Shown: positions 2 to 9,378 of the stretch, piece by piece
Layout of the letters: each line of letters opens with the position of its first letter
Position numbering within the stretch: position 1 is the stretch's first letter
Virus record (IMG/VR): IMGVR_UViG_3300013103_000813
Span: 1 to 28,924 of that record
From: a virus
DNA length: 28,924 nt
Direction: 5' to 3' (one strand)
Notes under the pieces: generated by a model
What the model was told of the DNA's origin: nothing
Databases searched by the model: none
The model's input: only the letters and a program-made list of their open reading frames with translations
Translations under genes and position numbers: made by a program

Positions 2-727
2 AACTCAATATACAGACAAATTGATATTGGCTTGCCAAAAACTGAAGCACTTAAAGATATTTTACAATCGAAAAATCAAGATCTAGATATTGAAATTATA
101 ACAGAAAAATTTCTTGAGCAGAAATCAGAAATTCCAGATAGTGATTTAATCTTAGACTGTAGAGATATAACATATGATCGAGGAACTAAAATTGATGCTC
201 GTATGTTTATTTCGTCTAGATATTTAATAGTTGATTGTCGTAAAAATGTTAATTACTCAAAACAAGTAGTTGGAAAATATATAGTCGAATTAAGCAAAGA
301 TGATTTAAGATATGCTGCTTCAATTGTATCAATGGCAATTCATAGTGGAACATTTAAGTCTTTGTTAAAAAACAAATCAGTGCAAAAATATGAACTAGAT
401 TATGTAAAGCATATTGACAATTACGAATGTGATATTGTATATGAAAATTTAGTTGGAGAAAATAAATTTATTAATCTTCCAGACAAAATTGTTCCTATAA
501 TTGACATGAACAAATCAAAAGATATAAATGTCTTTTTAGGAAGTAAAGTGTTACCAATCACTGAAAGATTGATTCCAAAGAATACATTACAGAACAGCGG
601 AGATTTAATTTCAAATTTAATATCTGTCGCTACAAGCGAATGTGATTTTAACCATTTTATTATCTCATTATTTCAAGAAAACAACCAAGTTTTTATTGAA
701 TTAATACCAGAAACGGGAGCAGCTTAA
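2..727 (+). CDS. ThiF/E1-like adenylyltransferase, C-terminal part (cut by left edge)
   Basis: The frame is open to the left edge, so the start is missing; a TTG at 32 is inside the fold and is not a credible start. The first visible residues read IYRQIDIGLPKTEALKDIL, matching the NLxRQ...diGkpKa segment of ThiF/MoeB/E1 enzymes, which adenylate the C-terminus of a ubiquitin-like or sulfur-carrier protein. A second match is LILDCRD near 149-166, aligning with the ThiF segment LDCTDN that holds the catalytic aspartate. The ATP-binding GxGxxG part lies outside the window. No CxxC zinc pair is seen downstream. The last 70 residues (521-724) look like a separate small alpha/beta domain ending in GAA. 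The stop overlaps the next start (TAATG), so the two are translationally coupled. Family membership is fairly secure; the substrate is unknown. Confidence 0.6.
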   Translation, partial: NSIYRQIDIGLPKTEALKDILQSKNQDLDIEIITEKFLEQKSEIPDSDLILDCRDITYDRGTKIDARMFISSRYLIVDCRKNVNYSKQVVGKYIVELSKDDLRYAASIVSMAIHSGTFKSLLKNKSVQKYELDYVKHIDNYECDIVYENLVGENKFINLPDKIVPIIDMNKSKDINVFLGSKVLPITERLIPKNTLQNSGDLISNLISVATSECDFNHFIISLFQENNQVFIELIPETGAA

Positions 728-1065
728 TGTTAGTAAAAAATACATTTGTTCCCGGTGTTTTTGTCCCATATAAATTAATTTTTAAAAATGAACTTTACAA
801 TATTATAGATTTAGAAAAAAAATTTATAATTAGAGGATATACGATCCAGACTGTAGATAAACAAATTGATATGGTTTTTATAAAGAATTCACATCCAAAT
901 GCAAATCCAAAGACTGGTGAATTTTGTATCCCCAACTCATTAAGAGAACATACTATTTGTACAAGTAGTAAAAATATCTTAGAATTGATATTATGTTGCT
1001 TTAATTTAGATGATTGTTATTTTACTCCTTGGGACGAAATAAAATATAAAAGACAAGAGGTGTAA
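727..1065 (+). CDS. E2-like (ubiquitin-conjugating fold) small protein
   Basis: A 112-residue protein whose ATG overlaps the stop of the E1-like gene. Its centre has H56-P57-N58, G64 and C67 (SHPNANPKTGEFCIPNSL), which fits the E2 signature HPN-x(4-5)-G-x-[IV]-C-L with one extra residue; C67 would be the thioester cysteine. It is followed by NILELILCCF, where E2 proteins have the helix after the active site, and by a PW near the end. The strands expected before HPN are visible (PYKLIF, IDMVFIKN). At 112 residues it is shorter than eukaryotic E2 (about 150) but within reach of prokaryotic E2-like families. Adjacency to an E1-like enzyme supports the reading. The match is by motif only; an inactive RWD-like relative is possible, although the cysteine is present. 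Confidence 0.5.
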   Translation: MLVKNTFVPGVFVPYKLIFKNELYNIIDLEKKFIIRGYTIQTVDKQIDMVFIKNSHPNANPKTGEFCIPNSLREHTICTSSKNILELILCCFNLDDCYFTPWDEIKYKRQEV

Positions 1066-1067
1066 AA

Positions 1068-1280
1068 ATGTCAGAAAAAAAAAGAAATGCCGGTGAGGAA
1101 AAACTAAAACATCGAGTTTCAGAAGCTATAGATGAAATCACTGAGGTAACAAAACAAGCTCTCGAAAAAGTATTTGCAGGAATGGTCGAGAGAACATCTG
1201 AAGTTTGCTCTGATATAATTAATAAGAAACGAGATAAAATTAAAAGTAAAATTGAAGGTATAAACAATGGAGAAGAATAA
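1068..1280 (+). CDS. Small charged helical protein, probable coiled coil
   Basis: A 70-residue protein starting two bases after the E2-like gene, with the ribosome site AGAGGTG at 1055-1061. It is dominated by K, E, I and V, and its middle part (about residues 14-65) has heptad-like spacing of hydrophobic residues, so a single long helix or coiled coil is likely. No recognised domain, cysteine cluster or membrane segment is present. It overlaps the next gene by 14 bases and belongs to the operon that leads into RNA polymerase beta-prime. Function is not recognised; an accessory role in the polymerase or in the E1/E2 module is possible from position only. Confidence 0.6.
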   Translation: MSEKKRNAGEEKLKHRVSEAIDEITEVTKQALEKVFAGMVERTSEVCSDIINKKRDKIKSKIEGINNGEE

Positions 1281-1473
1281 TCCAACTCTTTCAATTGAAG
1301 AAATATTAGATCAAAAAATTGAAGAAAAAATCAAACATTTGACTAAAGAGGATGTCCAATTTATAGTAAATGAATTAATCCCAAAGTTTGATGAGTTAAT
1401 TGCAGAAAGAGTGAAAACTCATTTTTATGAACTGGGCAAATTCCTCACAGAAAAATTTGATCCAGGAGCGTAG
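1267..1473 (+). CDS. Small acidic helical protein upstream of RNA polymerase beta-prime
   Basis: A 68-residue helical protein starting inside the end of the previous gene (ATG at 1267, reached by the GAAGG at 1254-1258) and ending TAG two bases before the beta-prime start. The sequence is mostly amphipathic helix. It ends FDPGA. Its size and position invite comparison with the RNA polymerase omega subunit, but the omega hallmarks (an ARVT-like start and a conserved NRFEL-type segment) are absent, so that call is not made. No function is recognised. Confidence 0.6.
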   Translation: MEKNNPTLSIEEILDQKIEEKIKHLTKEDVQFIVNELIPKFDELIAERVKTHFYELGKFLTEKFDPGA

Positions 1474-1475
1474 GT

Positions 1476-4181
1476 ATGCCAAAAATATTAGATTATAATT
1501 CATTTTGTGAAAACTTAGACGAAGTGACGTCTCTAAAAATATTTGGTAAAAAGAAGTTCCATCCAGAGGGACTATTTTCTGAGCAAATATTCGGTCCAAT
1601 AAAAAATTATACTTGCCAATGTGGAACCTATTATGGAATTTCACGAACAGGCGAACAATGTAAATTATGTAAAGTTGATATTGTAAACAGTAATATACGA
1701 AGAAAAAGATTCGCAAAAATTACAATACCAATTAAAGTTGTAAATCCATTATTTTATGACCTTTTGGTAGATCTTGGTGGAAAGGATTTAAAGAAAGCTA
1801 TTGATACACTTATGCGAAATGAGAAAAGTATTTTATATAAATCTCAAGATGATTATATAGTTACTGTTAATCAGAATACTCCAATTCCAGAAGGTTGTCA
1901 AGTTTGGGAACGAGCTGGTGCGATCTATGAGTTAATACTTGGAGTTGCAACAGTTGCAGTTAAGGGTGGTTCTGTTGAATGGAAATATATATTAGAAACT
2001 CTTGACAATTTATTAATTGACCAAATAATTGTTTTACCTCCTGACTTGAGACCAACATCAAAAAGTTCAGGAAAAAATAAGCAATTAATGGACAGAATAA
2101 ATAGATATTATATTCAAATTCTTACAAGGAAAGAAGCTATGAAAGAGATAATTATAAATATCTATAAAGATAAGGATTTGTATTATACCTATTTTAAACA
2201 ACTCCAAAAAGATGTAAATGAATTATATACAAGGATATTAGAAAAGATAGCAAAGAAAGAAGGTCTGATAAGAGGAAATATTCTTGGAAAAAGAATTGAC
2301 TTTTCAGGTCGCGCTGTTATTACACCAGATCCTACTCTTAAGTTAGACGAGTGTAAATTACCATATCTAATGGTCCTTGAAATATTCAAATTACCAATAG
2401 CAAAGAGATTGTTAGAACTTGGCAAGTTTAAGCCATTAAACCAGGCAATTGATTTTGTAGATAAATGTATTGACAATCAAGTTCCTGTTTTATATGGAAT
2501 TTGTAACGATATAATTACTGGAAAATATTGCGTATTAAATAGACAACCTTCTCTTCATAAATTAAGTATGCTTGGTTTTAAAATTAAAATAACATTAGAT
2601 CAAGTTATTAAAATACACCCTCTTTCTTGTCCTCCATTCAATGCTGATTTTGATGGGGATCAAATGGCGGTTTATATACCAATTACTGAAGAATGTGAAA
2701 AAGAGATTGAAGAAAAGATATCAATTAAAGAAAATTTAAATAGTCCTGCAAACGAATCTCTTACAACCATACCAACTCAAGATATTGTCTTAGGAATATA
2801 CTATTTAACATCATCTGAATTTAAAAATACAGAAAAAGTCACATATAAAAATCAGAAAATCACTTGGGGTCAAGCAGTATTTAATAAACAATTACCAAAA
2901 GATTATCCAGTTATATCAGATGTTGTTAATAAAAAATTATTACTTCAAATATTAAATGATATTAAAAATAGATATACGACAGATGAAGCAATTAAAGTTC
3001 TTGATAATATAAAACGTATTGGTTTTAAATATGCAACATTGTTTGGTTGTACAATGTCATTAAAAGATTGCTATATTGAAGAATCAAAAGAACTTAAGAA
3101 AGATATTTACTCTCCTAAAAGTACAAGGGAGCAATTAGTTGCTTCATCAGATCAGTCACTAATTGAAAAAATAAGAAATAGTTTTAAATACTCACATATG
3201 ATTGAATCTGGTGCTAGAGGTAGTTGGGACCAGGTAAAACAGTTAATTTTAACACGAGGTTTTATTTCAAATTTTGATGGTGAGATTTTACCTTACCCAA
3301 TTAAAAACTCATTGATTGACGGGCTAAACCAAGAAGAGTTTTTCTTTTCAACATATGGATGCCGTAAAGGTTTATTGGATGTTGCTTTAAATACTGGAAC
3401 GTCTGGCTACCTTTCAAGAAAATTAATTTTTACATGCGCAAATTTGCAAATTGATTCAGAACTAGAAGATTGTGGCACTAAAGATCTTCTTGAAGTAAGT
3501 GTAAGCAGTAAACGAAAAGCAAGAATGTTAATTAATAGATATTATTCTGAGAATAATTCTCTACATAAAATTACAAGTGAAAATTATAAAAGTCTTATTG
3601 GTAAACATATTGAAATAAGAAGTCCAGTTCTTTGCAAGAGTCCAAAAATTTGCCATAAATGTTATGGTGATTTATACAAAAACTTAAATAGTCGATTCAT
3701 TGGGATTATTGCTGCTCAAACTCTTGGTGAAAGAGGTACACAATTAGTATTAAGAACTTTTCATACTTCAGGGTCAGCAATTATAAAAGGTGAAGAAACC
3801 CAAGATGAATCAATGAAACAAAAAGATATTATTGGCGATCTCGCCTCAGTTTCAAAGTTACTGCATAAATTTAGAGGAAAGACATATACTGATATAATTG
3901 AAGAATTATTTGATGTATATGATAAAGATATATATCACGTTCATTTTGAATGTGTAGTTTCACAGTTAATGTGGAAATTCCATACTAAATGGAGATTGCT
4001 AGAAAACAGAGATCAAGTTTCGCCAGATTATTTCTCAGTCCAAAGCGTCCCAAACAACGAAAGTTGGATTTTAGCTATGGCATTTTCAAACCCCAAGAGA
4101 GCAATTTTACAGGGAATCTTATATGAGAGTAGATACTCAGGAATCATTGATAAGATTCTGAAAGGTGAAAAAATAAACTAG
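1476..4181 (+). CDS. rpoC: Phage-encoded DNA-directed RNA polymerase beta-prime subunit
   Basis: A 901-residue catalytic subunit in one reading frame. The N-terminal zinc site is present (C47, C49, C62, C65), followed by IRRKRFAKITIP. The active-site loop NADFDGDQM at residues 389-397 has all three magnesium-binding aspartates (D391, D393, D395). The bridge-helix segment ESGARGSWDQVKQL and the STYGCRKGLLDVALNT segment follow. The second zinc site is complete: C666 (in DCGTKD), C720, C726, C729 (in CHKCYGD). The trigger-loop segment AAQTLGERGTQLVLRTFHTS starts at 746. It is about 500 residues shorter than E. coli beta-prime; most of the part after the trigger loop is missing, though a SWILAMAF segment matching the conserved bacterial C-terminal region remains. 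Catalytic competence is predicted. No alpha, omega or sigma gene is seen nearby, so assembly must differ from the bacterial enzyme or use host parts. Confidence 0.97.
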   Translation: MPKILDYNSFCENLDEVTSLKIFGKKKFHPEGLFSEQIFGPIKNYTCQCGTYYGISRTGEQCKLCKVDIVNSNIRRKRFAKITIPIKVVNPLFYDLLVDLGGKDLKKAIDTLMRNEKSILYKSQDDYIVTVNQNTPIPEGCQVWERAGAIYELILGVATVAVKGGSVEWKYILETLDNLLIDQIIVLPPDLRPTSKSSGKNKQLMDRINRYYIQILTRKEAMKEIIINIYKDKDLYYTYFKQLQKDVNELYTRILEKIAKKEGLIRGNILGKRIDFSGRAVITPDPTLKLDECKLPYLMVLEIFKLPIAKRLLELGKFKPLNQAIDFVDKCIDNQVPVLYGICNDIITGKYCVLNRQPSLHKLSMLGFKIKITLDQVIKIHPLSCPPFNADFDGDQMAVYIPITEECEKEIEEKISIKENLNSPANESLTTIPTQDIVLGIYYLTSSEFKNTEKVTYKNQKITWGQAVFNKQLPKDYPVISDVVNKKLLLQILNDIKNRYTTDEAIKVLDNIKRIGFKYATLFGCTMSLKDCYIEESKELKKDIYSPKSTREQLVASSDQSLIEKIRNSFKYSHMIESGARGSWDQVKQLILTRGFISNFDGEILPYPIKNSLIDGLNQEEFFFSTYGCRKGLLDVALNTGTSGYLSRKLIFTCANLQIDSELEDCGTKDLLEVSVSSKRKARMLINRYYSENNSLHKITSENYKSLIGKHIEIRSPVLCKSPKICHKCYGDLYKNLNSRFIGIIAAQTLGERGTQLVLRTFHTSGSAIIKGEETQDESMKQKDIIGDLASVSKLLHKFRGKTYTDIIEELFDVYDKDIYHVHFECVVSQLMWKFHTKWRLLENRDQVSPDYFSVQSVPNNESWILAMAFSNPKRAILQGILYESRYSGIIDKILKGEKIN

Positions 4182-4394: not shown

Positions 4395-7385
4395 TTGAAT
4401 ATAATTAATCCTACATTTAAAATTCAAGATGAAGATTTTAATATCTTCACAATAAGGAAAAAAGATTATGAACAGATTTTACCTTTAGTTGAAGAAATAG
4501 TTAAGCCAGTAGAGGAAATTGGATTTGAAATTATTGAAGTAAATTTAAAAGACTCTCGTTTTTCATCAAGAGAGTTATCAAAGACAATTAAACAAACTTT
4601 GGTTATTAAATTAAGGAAAGGGAATTCAAATATCGACTTGAGCATTTTTATTCCAAAGTTGATAGATGATAATTATGTTGTAATAAATGGGAGAAAAAAA
4701 ATTCCATTATTTCAACTATTTGATATACCTATCGTAACCAGAGGTGAGAGTATAAAAATTAGAACAAATGTAGCTACAGTAATGGTTTATAAAGATCGAG
4801 AAGAACCAGCTATAAAAGTAAGTTTTCTTGGTAAAAAAGTTCCACTGTCTCTGATCTTATGCGCATATTACAGCATAGAAGATGTTAAGAAATTGTTTGA
4901 TATTGATCTTCCTATTGATGAAAATTCCGAAGATTTATATGAGTTATTAAGGAAGGATATAAAATTTCATCTTGATGAGTCTGAAGGCTATACACAAGAC
5001 GATTTTATCATTGAGCTTGGTAGAACCTACTCCAAATATAATGCCAAATCAAAGGGTGAAGATATTTTATATGCAATTGATTTGATTCCAAAGGTTGATC
5101 TTTTAACCACTAAATTCTTTCATACTGATTCTTTATTAAATGAAATTATATATGCAATCAAAACAGTAAATATTGATGACACATTATTTACAAATAAAAG
5201 AGTTAGATGTTTTGAATATATGATATTATCAAAGATTTCAAAGATCATATTTGATTTATGTTTTGCTAACAGAACAGCCAGACAACCAAAATTTAATATT
5301 AACTCAACTCAAATATTATCAGAATGTAATGTATCAGAAATAGTCCAGTTCAATTTCTCTATTAATCCTGTTGAAGAGTTGACAAAATTATCACGAATTA
5401 GTTTATTAGGACCTGGAGGTTTCAAAAGAGAAAATATTCCAAAACATTTAAGAGATATTTGTCCAACAATGTTTGGAAGAATTTGTCCAGTGGATACTCC
5501 AGATAGAGATAACTGTGGAGTATTACAAAATCTAGTACCAAATGTTAACTTAAGTGATGATTTAAGATTTACTAATGAAATCTGTGATAAACAGCCAATC
5601 TCAATACCTGTTTCACTAACTCCATTTTTAAAGCATGACGATCAAACCAGATTACAGATGGCTTCATCTCAAATGAGACAATCAATAATGCTGAAAGATT
5701 TTGATCCACCGTTAATAGGTTCTGGTTGTGAAAATTTATATACAGACTTTACCCAGTTTGTTAAAAGAGCAAAACATTCTGGTAAAGTGGTGTATATTGA
5801 TGACGATTATATTATCGTAATGTATGATAATGGTAAACCAGACATTTTTGATATTTCATATCGAAAAATTTATGTTGAGCATTTAGACTTTATGAATCTA
5901 TATGTTAAAACGGGAGATAAATTTAAATCTGGAGATATTTTAGCAGAAAGTAATTTCTGTAAAAATGGTCATATCAACATTGGAAAAAATCTTTTAGTAG
6001 GTGTTATGGTTTATTACGGAAATAATTATGAGGATGGTGTCGTTATTTCTGATAGATTAGTAAACAAAGATATATTTACATCTGTGCATTACAGAGATTT
6101 GTCATTTATGCTATCTCCAGATAAAGTTCTTTTATCTTTAGATGAAAAAGTGTATAAACCATTACCAAATAACTTAGAAACAATTAAAGCAGGGAACCCT
6201 TATGCAATCATTAAAAAATTGACTTCAAAAGAATTGTACTCACCATTTTCTGAAGATGTTGTTCTCGAAGCGAAAAAGAGTTTCATTATATCTGAAGTAA
6301 ATTTATATGCAAATGACTGGAATACTGAGATTCCAGAGTTTCGAGATTGGGTAAAGGAGCGTTTAGATAAACAAAGAGATAAACAAAAATATTTACAAAA
6401 AGTAGTGATAGATATTTTTGGTAAAGATGAAGGAACAAAGGTCATTCAAGAAAGAAGTATGGATAAATTTTCAGTTGATAAAAAATATAAACTGAAACGT
6501 GAAAAAATAAACGGAATCTTTGTTAAAATGTATGGAGTTCATTTTAGAAGGATAAGAGTTGGAGATAAAATTGCTAATAGGCATGGTAATAAAGGAGTAA
6601 TTTCACAGATTGTTCCACACGAAAAAATGCCACAATTAGAAGATGGAAGACATTTAGATATTTGTATCAACCCATTAGGAATAATTTCTAGAATGAATAT
6701 TGGTCAGCTCTATGAAATGCATCTATCAATGTCTATACAAGATCTAAAAAATAATATAGTTATAATGTTAAGTGAAAATAAACCACAAGATGAAATTAAA
6801 AAATATTTACTTGATTATATTAACATCATTGACAAGACAATTGATAACTGGTATTATAAACAATTCGTTGAGCAAATTCCTGAAGTAATAACTGAAGATT
6901 TTATAAAAGATCTTACTATAATACAACCCCCGTTCGAATCTTGTAGGTTAGATGAGGTTAAGAAAGCTCTTGAGTACACCAATACAAAATTTGAGCAAAA
7001 AATTTATGATCCTCTATCAGAAACTCATCTTGTAAACAAAATTGCTACAGGATTTATTTATTTTTTCAGAATGGTTCATATTGCAGAAGAAAAATTAGCT
7101 GCTAGAGGTATTGGTGCATATGCTAGACGAACATTACAGCCGCTTGGTGGAAGAAAGAATAAAGGCGGTCAAAGATGTGGAGAAATGGAAACTGCATGTT
7201 TAATCGGTCATGATGCACCACATAATTTATTTGAGTTTCTAACTACAAAATCAGATTGTATTGATTTGAAAAATAATTATATTAGAAATCTTATTGAACC
7301 AATGTTCAGTGATGAATTATGCGATATAGTTCCAGAATCAGTTAAGTTATTAAAATCATATCTAACTGTAATAGGAGTTGATTAA
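4395..7385 (+). CDS. rpoB: Phage-encoded DNA-directed RNA polymerase beta subunit
   Basis: A 996-residue subunit from a TTG start. Conserved blocks in order: the rifampicin-cluster region and GPGGFKRENIPKHLRD (G339 onward), then TMFGRICPVDTPDRDNCG; YEDGVVIS around E546-D547; the active-site block GDKIANRHGNKGVIS from G723, with NPLGIISRMNIGQ after it; and a C-terminal block with GAYARRTLQPLGG, GGQRCGEMET and a FLTTKSD segment that contacts beta-prime in bacterial enzymes. It is shorter than E. coli beta (1342) or Bacillus beta (about 1190), with the reduction mainly in the N-terminal lobes. D516 and H526 of the rifampicin pocket are replaced by F321 and K331. It pairs with the beta-prime gene upstream. 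Unlike phiKZ-type phages, where these subunits are split over several genes, both chains are single frames here. Confidence 0.97.
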   Translation: MNIINPTFKIQDEDFNIFTIRKKDYEQILPLVEEIVKPVEEIGFEIIEVNLKDSRFSSRELSKTIKQTLVIKLRKGNSNIDLSIFIPKLIDDNYVVINGRKKIPLFQLFDIPIVTRGESIKIRTNVATVMVYKDREEPAIKVSFLGKKVPLSLILCAYYSIEDVKKLFDIDLPIDENSEDLYELLRKDIKFHLDESEGYTQDDFIIELGRTYSKYNAKSKGEDILYAIDLIPKVDLLTTKFFHTDSLLNEIIYAIKTVNIDDTLFTNKRVRCFEYMILSKISKIIFDLCFANRTARQPKFNINSTQILSECNVSEIVQFNFSINPVEELTKLSRISLLGPGGFKRENIPKHLRDICPTMFGRICPVDTPDRDNCGVLQNLVPNVNLSDDLRFTNEICDKQPISIPVSLTPFLKHDDQTRLQMASSQMRQSIMLKDFDPPLIGSGCENLYTDFTQFVKRAKHSGKVVYIDDDYIIVMYDNGKPDIFDISYRKIYVEHLDFMNLYVKTGDKFKSGDILAESNFCKNGHINIGKNLLVGVMVYYGNNYEDGVVISDRLVNKDIFTSVHYRDLSFMLSPDKVLLSLDEKVYKPLPNNLETIKAGNPYAIIKKLTSKELYSPFSEDVVLEAKKSFIISEVNLYANDWNTEIPEFRDWVKERLDKQRDKQKYLQKVVIDIFGKDEGTKVIQERSMDKFSVDKKYKLKREKINGIFVKMYGVHFRRIRVGDKIANRHGNKGVISQIVPHEKMPQLEDGRHLDICINPLGIISRMNIGQLYEMHLSMSIQDLKNNIVIMLSENKPQDEIKKYLLDYINIIDKTIDNWYYKQFVEQIPEVITEDFIKDLTIIQPPFESCRLDEVKKALEYTNTKFEQKIYDPLSETHLVNKIATGFIYFFRMVHIAEEKLAARGIGAYARRTLQPLGGRKNKGGQRCGEMETACLIGHDAPHNLFEFLTTKSDCIDLKNNYIRNLIEPMFSDELCDIVPESVKLLKSYLTVIGVD

Positions 7386-7837: not shown

Positions 7838-8680
7838 ATGGATTGTTTACCAGATATACAATGTTCTCATCCAGAGGTAAATATACCTATACAACAAGTT
7901 GGTGTTGAGAATATAGAAGTACCTTTTAAACTCGAGTTTAGAAGTGGAGGTTTCTGCCAGATGAATGCTAATGTATCAATAAGAACAGATCTTGATCAAG
8001 ATACAAAGGGAATTTCAATGTCTAGACTCTTATTAACTTTAAAGCCATATTTAGATTTACCTCTTAAACAAAAATTAATTAAATTAATATTAGAAGATTT
8101 ACGAAACAATATTGGTAGTACAAATAGTTTTATGAAATTTAGTTTTCGTATGCCAATAATTAGAAAGTCAATTTTGTCAGACCATCAATTTCCAATATAC
8201 TATAAATGTCGGTTCGAAGGTCAATTGAAAAATGGAGATTTTAGTTTTTTTCAAGGAGTTGTAGTTCAATATGCATCATATTGTCCATGTTCCGCAGAAC
8301 TCTGTCAACATTTAAGGGAAAATGATTCAGTCGGTTTTCCACATAACCAAAGATCGTTTGCTGACGTTTTAGTACAAGTGAAACAACCAAACTATGTCTG
8401 GCTTGAAGATATTATTGATTCCATTGAATCTGCAATTAAAACATTACCATATCCTATAATCAAAAGAGTTGATGAGCAAGAAATTGCAAGAGTAGCAGCA
8501 GAAAATCCTTTGTTTGTTGAAGATGCAATCCGATTAATTTCATATCAACTAAATAATATGGGAACATTATATGATTGGATAGTTAAATGTAGTCATGAAG
8601 AATCAATCCATACATCTGAAGCAATTGCTATAAATTGGAAAGGTGTACCAGGTGGTTTTAGTGAAAGGAGATTTTTATGA
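7838..8680 (+). CDS. folE2: GTP cyclohydrolase IB (FolE2/MptA family)
   Basis: A 280-residue protein with a GGGGGA ribosome site before ATG 7838. Family hallmarks are all present: LPDIQ near the start, VGVENIEVPF, KGISMSRL (58-64), YCPCSAEL with the catalytic-region cysteines C149 and C151, PHNQRS (168-173), IIKRVDEQE (207-215), ENPLFVEDAIR (222-232) and EESIH (254-258). The enzyme converts GTP to 7,8-dihydroneopterin triphosphate, the first step of folate and of 7-deazaguanine (preQ0) synthesis. The CPCS-to-HNQRS loop has about eight extra residues relative to usual FolE2. QueD, QueE and QueC are not in the window. In phages a GTP cyclohydrolase most often feeds deazaguanine modification of DNA or RNA; folate supply is the alternative. 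It overlaps the next gene by four bases. Confidence 0.92.
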   Translation: MDCLPDIQCSHPEVNIPIQQVGVENIEVPFKLEFRSGGFCQMNANVSIRTDLDQDTKGISMSRLLLTLKPYLDLPLKQKLIKLILEDLRNNIGSTNSFMKFSFRMPIIRKSILSDHQFPIYYKCRFEGQLKNGDFSFFQGVVVQYASYCPCSAELCQHLRENDSVGFPHNQRSFADVLVQVKQPNYVWLEDIIDSIESAIKTLPYPIIKRVDEQEIARVAAENPLFVEDAIRLISYQLNNMGTLYDWIVKCSHEESIHTSEAIAINWKGVPGGFSERRFL

Positions 8681-9378
8681 TTCAAGTTACAATAAGTTAT
8701 AATGTAACTGAAGAAACTTACCAAAAATTAGATAATTTACAAACTGATATCCAATTGGCTTTATATGATTATGATTTATATAAAAATAAGAAAGATAAAA
8801 TTCTATCAAAATTAGAAGATAATCCAAAAATTAGAATTGTGCATTTGCCTTTACAAACTCTAAAAATTCCAGTCACTGAAATTGACAAGTTAATAAATGA
8901 TATTTTTATAAGAACTGGTTGTGTCAATTTTGTTGTGCACCCAAATAGAGGCATCGAAAAATTTCTAAGATATTTTCAAAAAAAGTCTCCGCAAATAATC
9001 TGTGTTGAAACATTTGCATGGCGTAGAAAAAAAGCTTTAAGAACTCCTCTCGAAATAATTGATGTATGTAGATGGTATAATTCTACCTACATGACAATAG
9101 ATACTTGCCATATTGAAGATATTTGGTTTGATCATAAAATTATGTCTTATCTACTAAAATATACAAAAGTTATTCATCTATCAAATAGAGCAAAAGGATT
9201 CGGTTCTCATATTCCATTTAATCATCCACATGGAGAATTGAAGTTAGTAAGTTTTGTAAGAGAATTAAAATTTAAATATAAATGGAGTGGATATATTGTA
9301 TTGGAATATATGGCTGAATATCAAGATAAATTATTAAAAAATTATAATTATGTTAAGAGGCTTTTAGAGATCGAATAA
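8677..9378 (+). CDS. Xylose isomerase/endonuclease IV-like TIM-barrel protein
   Basis: A 233-residue protein translationally coupled to FolE2 (ATGA). The order of likely metal ligands is that of the endonuclease IV/xylose isomerase-like barrel: H56, H88 (FVVHPN), E111 (CVETFAW), D142 and H145 (TIDTCH), H167 (VIHLSN), H183/H185 (HPHGE) and E210 (IVLEY). These residues normally bind two or three divalent metals in sugar phosphate isomerases/epimerases and AP endonucleases. It is smaller than endonuclease IV (about 280-300), so an isomerase/epimerase-like or nucleotide-modifying role is as likely as DNA repair. Coupling to FolE2 suggests a shared pathway, but that is inference. Confidence 0.7.
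   Translation: MIQVTISYNVTEETYQKLDNLQTDIQLALYDYDLYKNKKDKILSKLEDNPKIRIVHLPLQTLKIPVTEIDKLINDIFIRTGCVNFVVHPNRGIEKFLRYFQKKSPQIICVETFAWRRKKALRTPLEIIDVCRWYNSTYMTIDTCHIEDIWFDHKIMSYLLKYTKVIHLSNRAKGFGSHIPFNHPHGELKLVSFVRELKFKYKWSGYIVLEYMAEYQDKLLKNYNYVKRLLEIE

Follow-up and report, generated by a model that had tools for sequence, protein, structure and literature searches.

A putative ubiquitin-like conjugation operon encoded with a phage multisubunit RNA polymerase

Genes at the left edge of the window

The DNA analysed here, referred to as the window, is the virus record IMGVR_UViG_3300013103_000813 over its 28,924 nt (positions 1 to 28,924), a 28.9 kb fragment that terminase, tape measure, and baseplate genes identify as a tailed phage. 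A plus-strand ORF at 2..727, truncated at its 5' end where the window begins, encodes 241 aa of a ThiF-type E1-like adenylyltransferase (E1b). It includes SIYRQIDIGLPKTEAL and LILDCRD, the Cys of which (158..160, +) is C98 of the intact protein, and it matched the ThiF profile (PF00899) at profile positions 65-120 with E=9e-6. The ORF overlaps the next by one base in a TAATG, which couples it translationally to an ATG-initiated plus-strand ORF of 112 aa (727..1065) for an E2-like (UBC-like) protein. This protein harbors an HPN motif (H56 P57 N58; 892..900, +) and a candidate thioester cysteine, C67 (925..927, +).

Two small plus-strand ORFs follow. The first (1068..1280, 70 aa, an ORF call) lies between the E2-like gene and rpoC and has a 77-aa counterpart at the equivalent position of a related locus, L004; the second (1267..1473, 68 aa) belongs to a family found upstream of rpoC in many relatives. 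Downstream on the same strand are an rpoC-like gene for an RNA polymerase (RNAP) beta' subunit of 901 aa with NADFDGD (1476..4181; Pfam RNA_pol_Rpb1_2, E=1.4e-33) and an rpoB-like gene for a beta subunit of 996 aa (4395..7385; Pfam RNA_pol_Rpb2_6, E=6.8e-55). The same gene run also contains folE2 (GTP cyclohydrolase, E=1.7e-62), then a gene for an unassigned 233-aa protein, at window positions 7838-9378. The original prediction had described an E1-like end coupled by TAATG to an HPN/C67 protein, in one run of genes with a phage RNA polymerase, and had proposed a comparison of the first ORF with ThiF; the motifs, the coupling, the ThiF match, and the presence of rpoC and rpoB further along the strand all agree with it.

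The gene run to the left of the window

The window E1 fragment, used as a query, retrieved a sister contig, IMGVR_UViG_3300033149_004993 (L002), which is 99.4% identical to the window across 10.7 kb and extends 10 kb further left. Its genes are, in order, an SbcC-like ATPase, a 127-aa protein, a radical SAM protein, WYL_2, a 117-aa protein, an 852-aa protein (E2D), a JAB protein with zinc ribbons, a further E1 (E1a), a ubiquitin-like protein (Ubl), E1b, the 112-aa E2 candidate, the two small ORFs, rpoC, a 62-aa ORF, rpoB, and, further on, folE2. Between the radical SAM gene and rpoC the genes are tightly packed, each overlapping the next or separated from it by at most 20 bp (20 to -8 bp inside the cassette), the one exception being 78 bp between Ubl and E1b. 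In the L004 locus the genes follow the same order, and protein identities are 50-80%. The upstream cassette genes of the window virus itself are inferred from the near-identical sister sequence.

Among the PADLOC models, those for prokaryotic viperin (pVip) matched the radical SAM protein of this gene run (L002:2753-3796) with E=4e-14, which could reflect a true relationship to viperin or merely a generic radical SAM match.

An extension to the left had been expected to reveal a GxGxxG region, a ubiquitin-like gene, and a JAB protease, and the lack of an upstream Rossmann ATP-binding region would have refuted the proposal. All three lie directly upstream in L002 and in dozens of relatives, and the GxGxxG is present in the L002 E1b. 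The E1-E2 cassette was thereby upheld in a refined form: the window E1 is the second of two E1s, and a Prok-E2_D-type protein is present as a second candidate E2.

The two E1 proteins

The intact E1b (286 aa, L002:9866-10726) matched ThiF with E=1.4e-15 and carries GLGTLGG. Its GxGxxG, D35, D37, K58, C98, and D100 are 94-100% conserved in 68 homologues, with C98 invariant. This residue stands at the site of the 'vlDCtDn' motif common in ThiF/MoeB proteins, which often carry Cys there, and we therefore do not claim it as catalytic. In E1a, which has UBA5 among its nearest solved relatives, all 70 sequences share GxGGxG, D, R, K, D-N-R, and a cysteine, C176 in the numbering that starts at the TTG (L002:8592). 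E1a and E1b accordingly fulfil the criterion for the E1/ThiF superfamily, an adenylation site with GxGxxG, D, and K. E1b also matched E1-E2 (Cap2-type) models with E=1.5e-10; this similarity, like the PADLOC matches in the Bil/CBASS context, is confined to the generic ThiF domain.

The ubiquitin-like protein, the JAMM protease, and E2D

The Ubl of L002 is a SAP-domain/ubiquitin-like protein of 158 aa with the C-terminus ..GRKG. The best matches of the N-terminal SAP/Rho_N domain had E values of 3e-7 and 4e-12, and the C-terminal domain gave weak ThiS/TGS/MoaD-type matches in many members (best ThiS/TGS, 7e-4/9e-4). The KG is invariant in 59 sequences. About one-quarter of the Ubls have 1-9 residues beyond it (KGC, KGF, KGLA, KGVILTK, KGIIGTLLKKC), as would a ubiquitin-like precursor in need of trimming. 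A candidate for such trimming is the JAB protein, which fulfils the criterion for a JAMM metalloprotease: the motif E..HxH(x7)SxxD is conserved at 95-98% in 73 proteins. Prok-JAB was matched in all ten large phage records, six of them above the cut-off.

E2D harbors N172 and C180, invariant in 22 and 52 sequences, cultured-phage relatives included. Pfam Prok-E2_D matched the L002 protein below its cut-off (E=5e-4, 20.3 bits vs 25) and was found in 10 of 19 members of the wider E2D alignment (best, 3e-11). The Prok-E2_D-like domain was modelled at pLDDT 88; Foldseek with this domain was uninformative, with no E2 among the PDB matches listed. Profile searches against the PDB gave nothing for JAB and a chance match only for E2D.

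The 112-aa HPN-type E2 candidate

No Pfam, PHROG, or NCBIfam family matched the 112-aa protein, including the Pfam UBC families UQ_con and Prok-E2; UQ_con, for its part, found nothing in the window record, nor in control genomes expected to match, so that this last search carries no weight. This lack of any family assignment leaves room for a coincidence, in which HPN and C67 would have no enzymatic meaning and the protein would be an unrelated RNAP accessory factor. Some support comes from L020/L091, which has the HPN at this position without a Cys at the usual spacing. Against it, H56 and C67 are conserved in 100%, P57 in 96%, and N58 in 93% of 56 distinct homologues, and due to this conservation the motif is not attributed to chance; the family averages only about 27% pairwise identity, and the gene is coupled to an E1. 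An HPN-like motif followed by an active-site Cys, the criterion for UBC/E2 proteins, is thus fulfilled in the family. One member (L104) has an HxN..C version.

Structure prediction points the same way, with limited statistical force. AlphaFold2 modelled the protein at pLDDT 95.8 and pTM 0.84, and the predicted fold consists of strands, the active site, and then helices, with no helix ahead of the first strand. E2 enzymes made up 10 of the 20 top Foldseek hits in the PDB, and an E2 of Bodo saltans virus headed the viral-library list. The best PDB match was an E2 with a probability of 0.90, which was not significant (E 0.088, TM 0.45), a further point that the coincidence can claim. The family profile also matched the Pex4 E2 in HPNVNFKTGEIC, with Cys aligned on Cys (E 0.08). 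A structure prediction with a non-UBC fold would have overturned the original prediction; instead, the model is confident and UBC/E2 enzymes head its structural matches, although below statistical significance. We consider a coincidence scarcely credible and regard the 112-aa protein as the best E2 candidate in the cassette.

Conjugation or sulfur transfer

The same components could be read as a sulfur-carrier pathway, in which the E1s would convert a ThiS/MoaD-like protein into its thiocarboxylate, to be used in modifying a cofactor, a tRNA, or a nucleotide, and nothing is conjugated. E1a and E1b do match ThiF/MoeB models, the weak Ubl matches are to ThiS, TGS, and MoaD, and the gene run also includes folE2 and a radical SAM gene. 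The conserved set nevertheless includes two E2-type proteins, each with an invariant N and Cys, and a JAMM protease whose motif is intact; neither rhodanese nor cysteine desulfurase appeared among the Pfam matches of the scanned upstream genes of L002. Sulfur transfer alone is, in our judgement, quite improbable. The preference for conjugation over simple sulfur transfer, which had been argued from the E2-like partner, is supported by the two E2-type proteins and the protease, and it remains an inference.

Conservation of the cassette with the RNA polymerase

Searches of viral contigs with single proteins returned the two closest contigs only, and alignments of E1a and rpoC opened the family. 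The E1a-based scan resulted in 34 loci and the rpoC-based scan in 79; the E1a scan of genome contigs found no cellular relative. From 64 loci with this rpoC type and more than 7.5 kb of DNA upstream, 48 had all six cassette genes upstream of rpoC, 58 had E1b, and 54 had the 112-aa family. The set includes near-duplicate contigs; 42 of the complete loci differ from one another in rpoC, at a mean rpoC identity of 60%. For each of the six proteins, distances between loci are correlated with those of rpoC (Mantel test, r 0.26-0.73, p 0.001-0.008).

Five loci (L112, L114, L082, L108, and L110) had none of the six genes nearby. L112 and L114 were rejected as cassette-less phages, as these loci are the second RNAP of their contigs and the 112-aa family is elsewhere on the contig; on the contig of L114, it lies 5 bp from the first rpoC. 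The remaining three have an RNAP without any cassette gene and are genuine exceptions on the available DNA; therefore, the cassette is not required for polymerase function as such.

This pattern bears on a role in counter-defence, in which host immune proteins would be tagged or stripped, for example, against CBASS Cap2 or Bil. Bacterial anti-phage immunity does employ Ubl conjugation (PMC10097602), and the E1b match to Cap2-type models is in keeping with such a role. That likeness lies only in the generic ThiF domain, however, and the gene set is nearly fixed in the RNAP clade and co-inherited with rpoC, whereas counter-defence genes are typically patchy. We think this role unlikely.

The cassette also comes apart. 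In the L022-L037 phages and in L085, E2D-JAB-E1a-Ubl stands alone, with neither E1b nor the 112-aa family; conversely, L096, L103, and L107 carry the pair of E1b and the 112-aa family next to rpoC, and no E1a, Ubl, or E2D was recognised in the 9.5 kb upstream. This suggests two separable halves: one branch would join E1a with E2D and the other E1b with the 112-aa protein, and a single Ubl common to both would be the simplest arrangement. The halves may instead be two independent pathways, one a PRTRC-like E2D-JAB-E1a-Ubl system and the other an E1b with its 112-aa E2 serving another modifier or RNAP assembly. Each half does occur alone; most loci, however, have a single Ubl gene, placed between E1a and E1b, E1b is fused to a SAP-Ubl-like segment in L104, and 48 loci keep both halves. 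Independent pathways are possible, if on the unlikely side, and they overlap with our preferred explanation of a single conjugation system, which leaves the pairing of E1s and E2s open.

The L022-L037 phages and G006 form a second group of jumbo phages, with E2D-JAB-E1-Ubl (Ubl of 83 aa) but without this RNAP. JAB and ThiF are each represented by two genes in G006. A freshwater origin of the group is only a guess.

The carrier phages

Most large contigs have a Gp23-type capsid, and most have two RNAPs, with about 30-100 kb between the one linked to the cassette and the other. Second rpoC/rpoB pairs, about 30% identical to and far from the first, were seen in L072/L118, L089/L119, L081/L115, and L064/L121; in some records the second pair is split or has in-frame stops. 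The cassette is probably hosted by the mReC lineage of jumbo Caudovirales described by Weinheimer and Aylward in 2020 (PMC7481178). We make this assignment because the whole beta and beta' genes, NADFDGD, and the Gp23-type capsid family agree with that report, which likewise drew on IMG/VR contigs, some larger than 200 kb; the phages were not placed on the mReC tree. Unlike the features just named, the Ubl cassette is undescribed there, and the words ubiquitin, JAB, and ThiF are absent from the paper. A limited word search, which cannot prove absence, likewise found no description of a Ubl system in the main text of that paper, of a survey of 224 jumbo-phage genomes (PMC7824862), of a 2026 jumbo-phage review (PMC13282480), or of a review on the RNAPs of jumbo phages (PMC7598289).

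Relation to known systems

The E2D-JAB-E1a-Ubl half resembles the type-6d/PRTRC operons (Iyer et al. 2006, PMC1779556, Table 1 row 6d) and may work like them, to judge from its sequences: these operons also have a Ubl, a JAB, an E1, and a Prok-E2_D-type E2 without the classical His. JAB matched PRTRC_A with 46.9 bits (E=2.3e-12; cut-off 101.8 bits) and E1a matched PRTRC_ThiF with 34.9 bits (E=9.7e-9; cut-off 144.75 bits); E2D reached 13.8 bits with PRTRC_B, which does not meet the criterion, and the Ubl had no match to PRTRC_C. Because every PRTRC cut-off was missed, we did not file this half as PRTRC. The phage cassette further differs in its SAP-bearing Ubl, in the added E1b and separate HPN-type E2, and in its location in a phage RNAP operon.

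Public records already contain Ubl modules from phages. The cultured phages vB_BauM_KLEB27-3 (Bacillus), D69/D181/D148 (Vibrio), and Arash (Salmonella) have PRTRC-like modules, with E2D-type, JAB, and ThiF genes in a row and Ubl repeats with KG ends, and the KLEB27-3 Ubl scores above the PRTRC_C cut-off. In contrast to the present cassette, tblastn found no match to E1b or the 112-aa family in them, and the module is not adjacent to an RNAP in the stretches examined. INPHARED gave no match for the window E1, the 112-aa protein, or the Ubl, and the lineage is not known to have a cultured member.

Some details of these records were noted separately. KLEB27-3 gp199 (L006:16931-17680) has four tandem PRTRC_C Ubl repeats with VKG ends, close upstream of the E2D-like/JAB/ThiF run. 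Vibrio phage D69 encodes a 263-aa protein with three Ub-like repeats and TGTKG ends (L005:11295-12086), near E2-like, JAB, and ThiF genes that are all annotated as hypothetical. Arash has E2-like, JAB, and ThiF genes and a 66-aa ORF with an RRTGTKG end (L007:16282-20714); its ThiF and E2-like products are annotated as 'structural protein', which may reflect virion detection.

The CBASS Cap2/Cap3 and Bil systems share the E1/E2/JAB logic, and the E1b ThiF domain matches E1-E2 models; they are, however, host defence operons, with Cap2 an E1-E2 fusion, whereas the proteins here are separate and phage-encoded. The lambda/T1 tail genes TAPI (Ub-like) and TAPK (JAB and NlpC/P60) provide another phage Ub-like protein adjoining a JAB peptidase (PMC1779556), but no E1 or E2 has been described for them and their role is in tail assembly, not transcription. 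The novelty lies in the additional E1b together with a separate HPN-type E2, in the SAP domain of the Ubl, and in the close, conserved association with an RNAP of the phage.

Proposed pathway and significance

The interpretation that we favor, with good but incomplete confidence, is that the operon encodes a complete, reversible Ubl conjugation pathway together with a phage multisubunit RNAP. Sequence comparison, without any experiment, demonstrates which components are present, that their motifs are intact, and that the gene order is conserved, whereas trimming, adenylation, thioester transfer, ligation, and removal are inferred. The JAMM protease would trim the SAP-Ubl, a putative beta-grasp protein, where needed and expose the conserved C-terminal ..KG, the C-terminal glycine of which would be adenylated by E1a and/or E1b. 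The Ubl would then form a thioester on C67 of the 112-aa HPN-type E2 in the E1b branch and/or on C180 of the 852-aa E2D in the E1a branch, be ligated onto an amine of the target, and could be taken off again by the JAMM protease. The original interpretation as an E1-E2 conjugation cassette was thus largely right, with conjugation and target both inferred.

No target has been identified. Our best guess, weakly held, falls on some protein component of the phage transcription/DNA complex, since the operon ties the cassette to one of two RNAPs and the Ubl has a SAP domain, which is of a DNA-binding type; operon position and this domain are the only basis for the guess. That mReC-type jumbo phages modify or regulate their own RNAP or DNA-bound complex by a two-E1, two-E2, SAP-Ubl conjugation is offered as speculation and remains doubtful.

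Bacterial Ubl conjugation is known in host defence operons and mobile elements. If the proposal is true, this would be a virus-encoded, transcription-coupled ubiquitin-like system in bacteria. The one Ubl, two E1s, two E2s, and one protease make a compact, testable system, and the stand-alone HPN-type E2 family bears on the evolution of the E1-E2 relay. A complete pathway, nearly fixed and wired to the RNAP, would put ubiquitin-like tagging in the core infection programme of these phages and, if the machine functions as it looks, would give a phage a new way to control proteins during infection.
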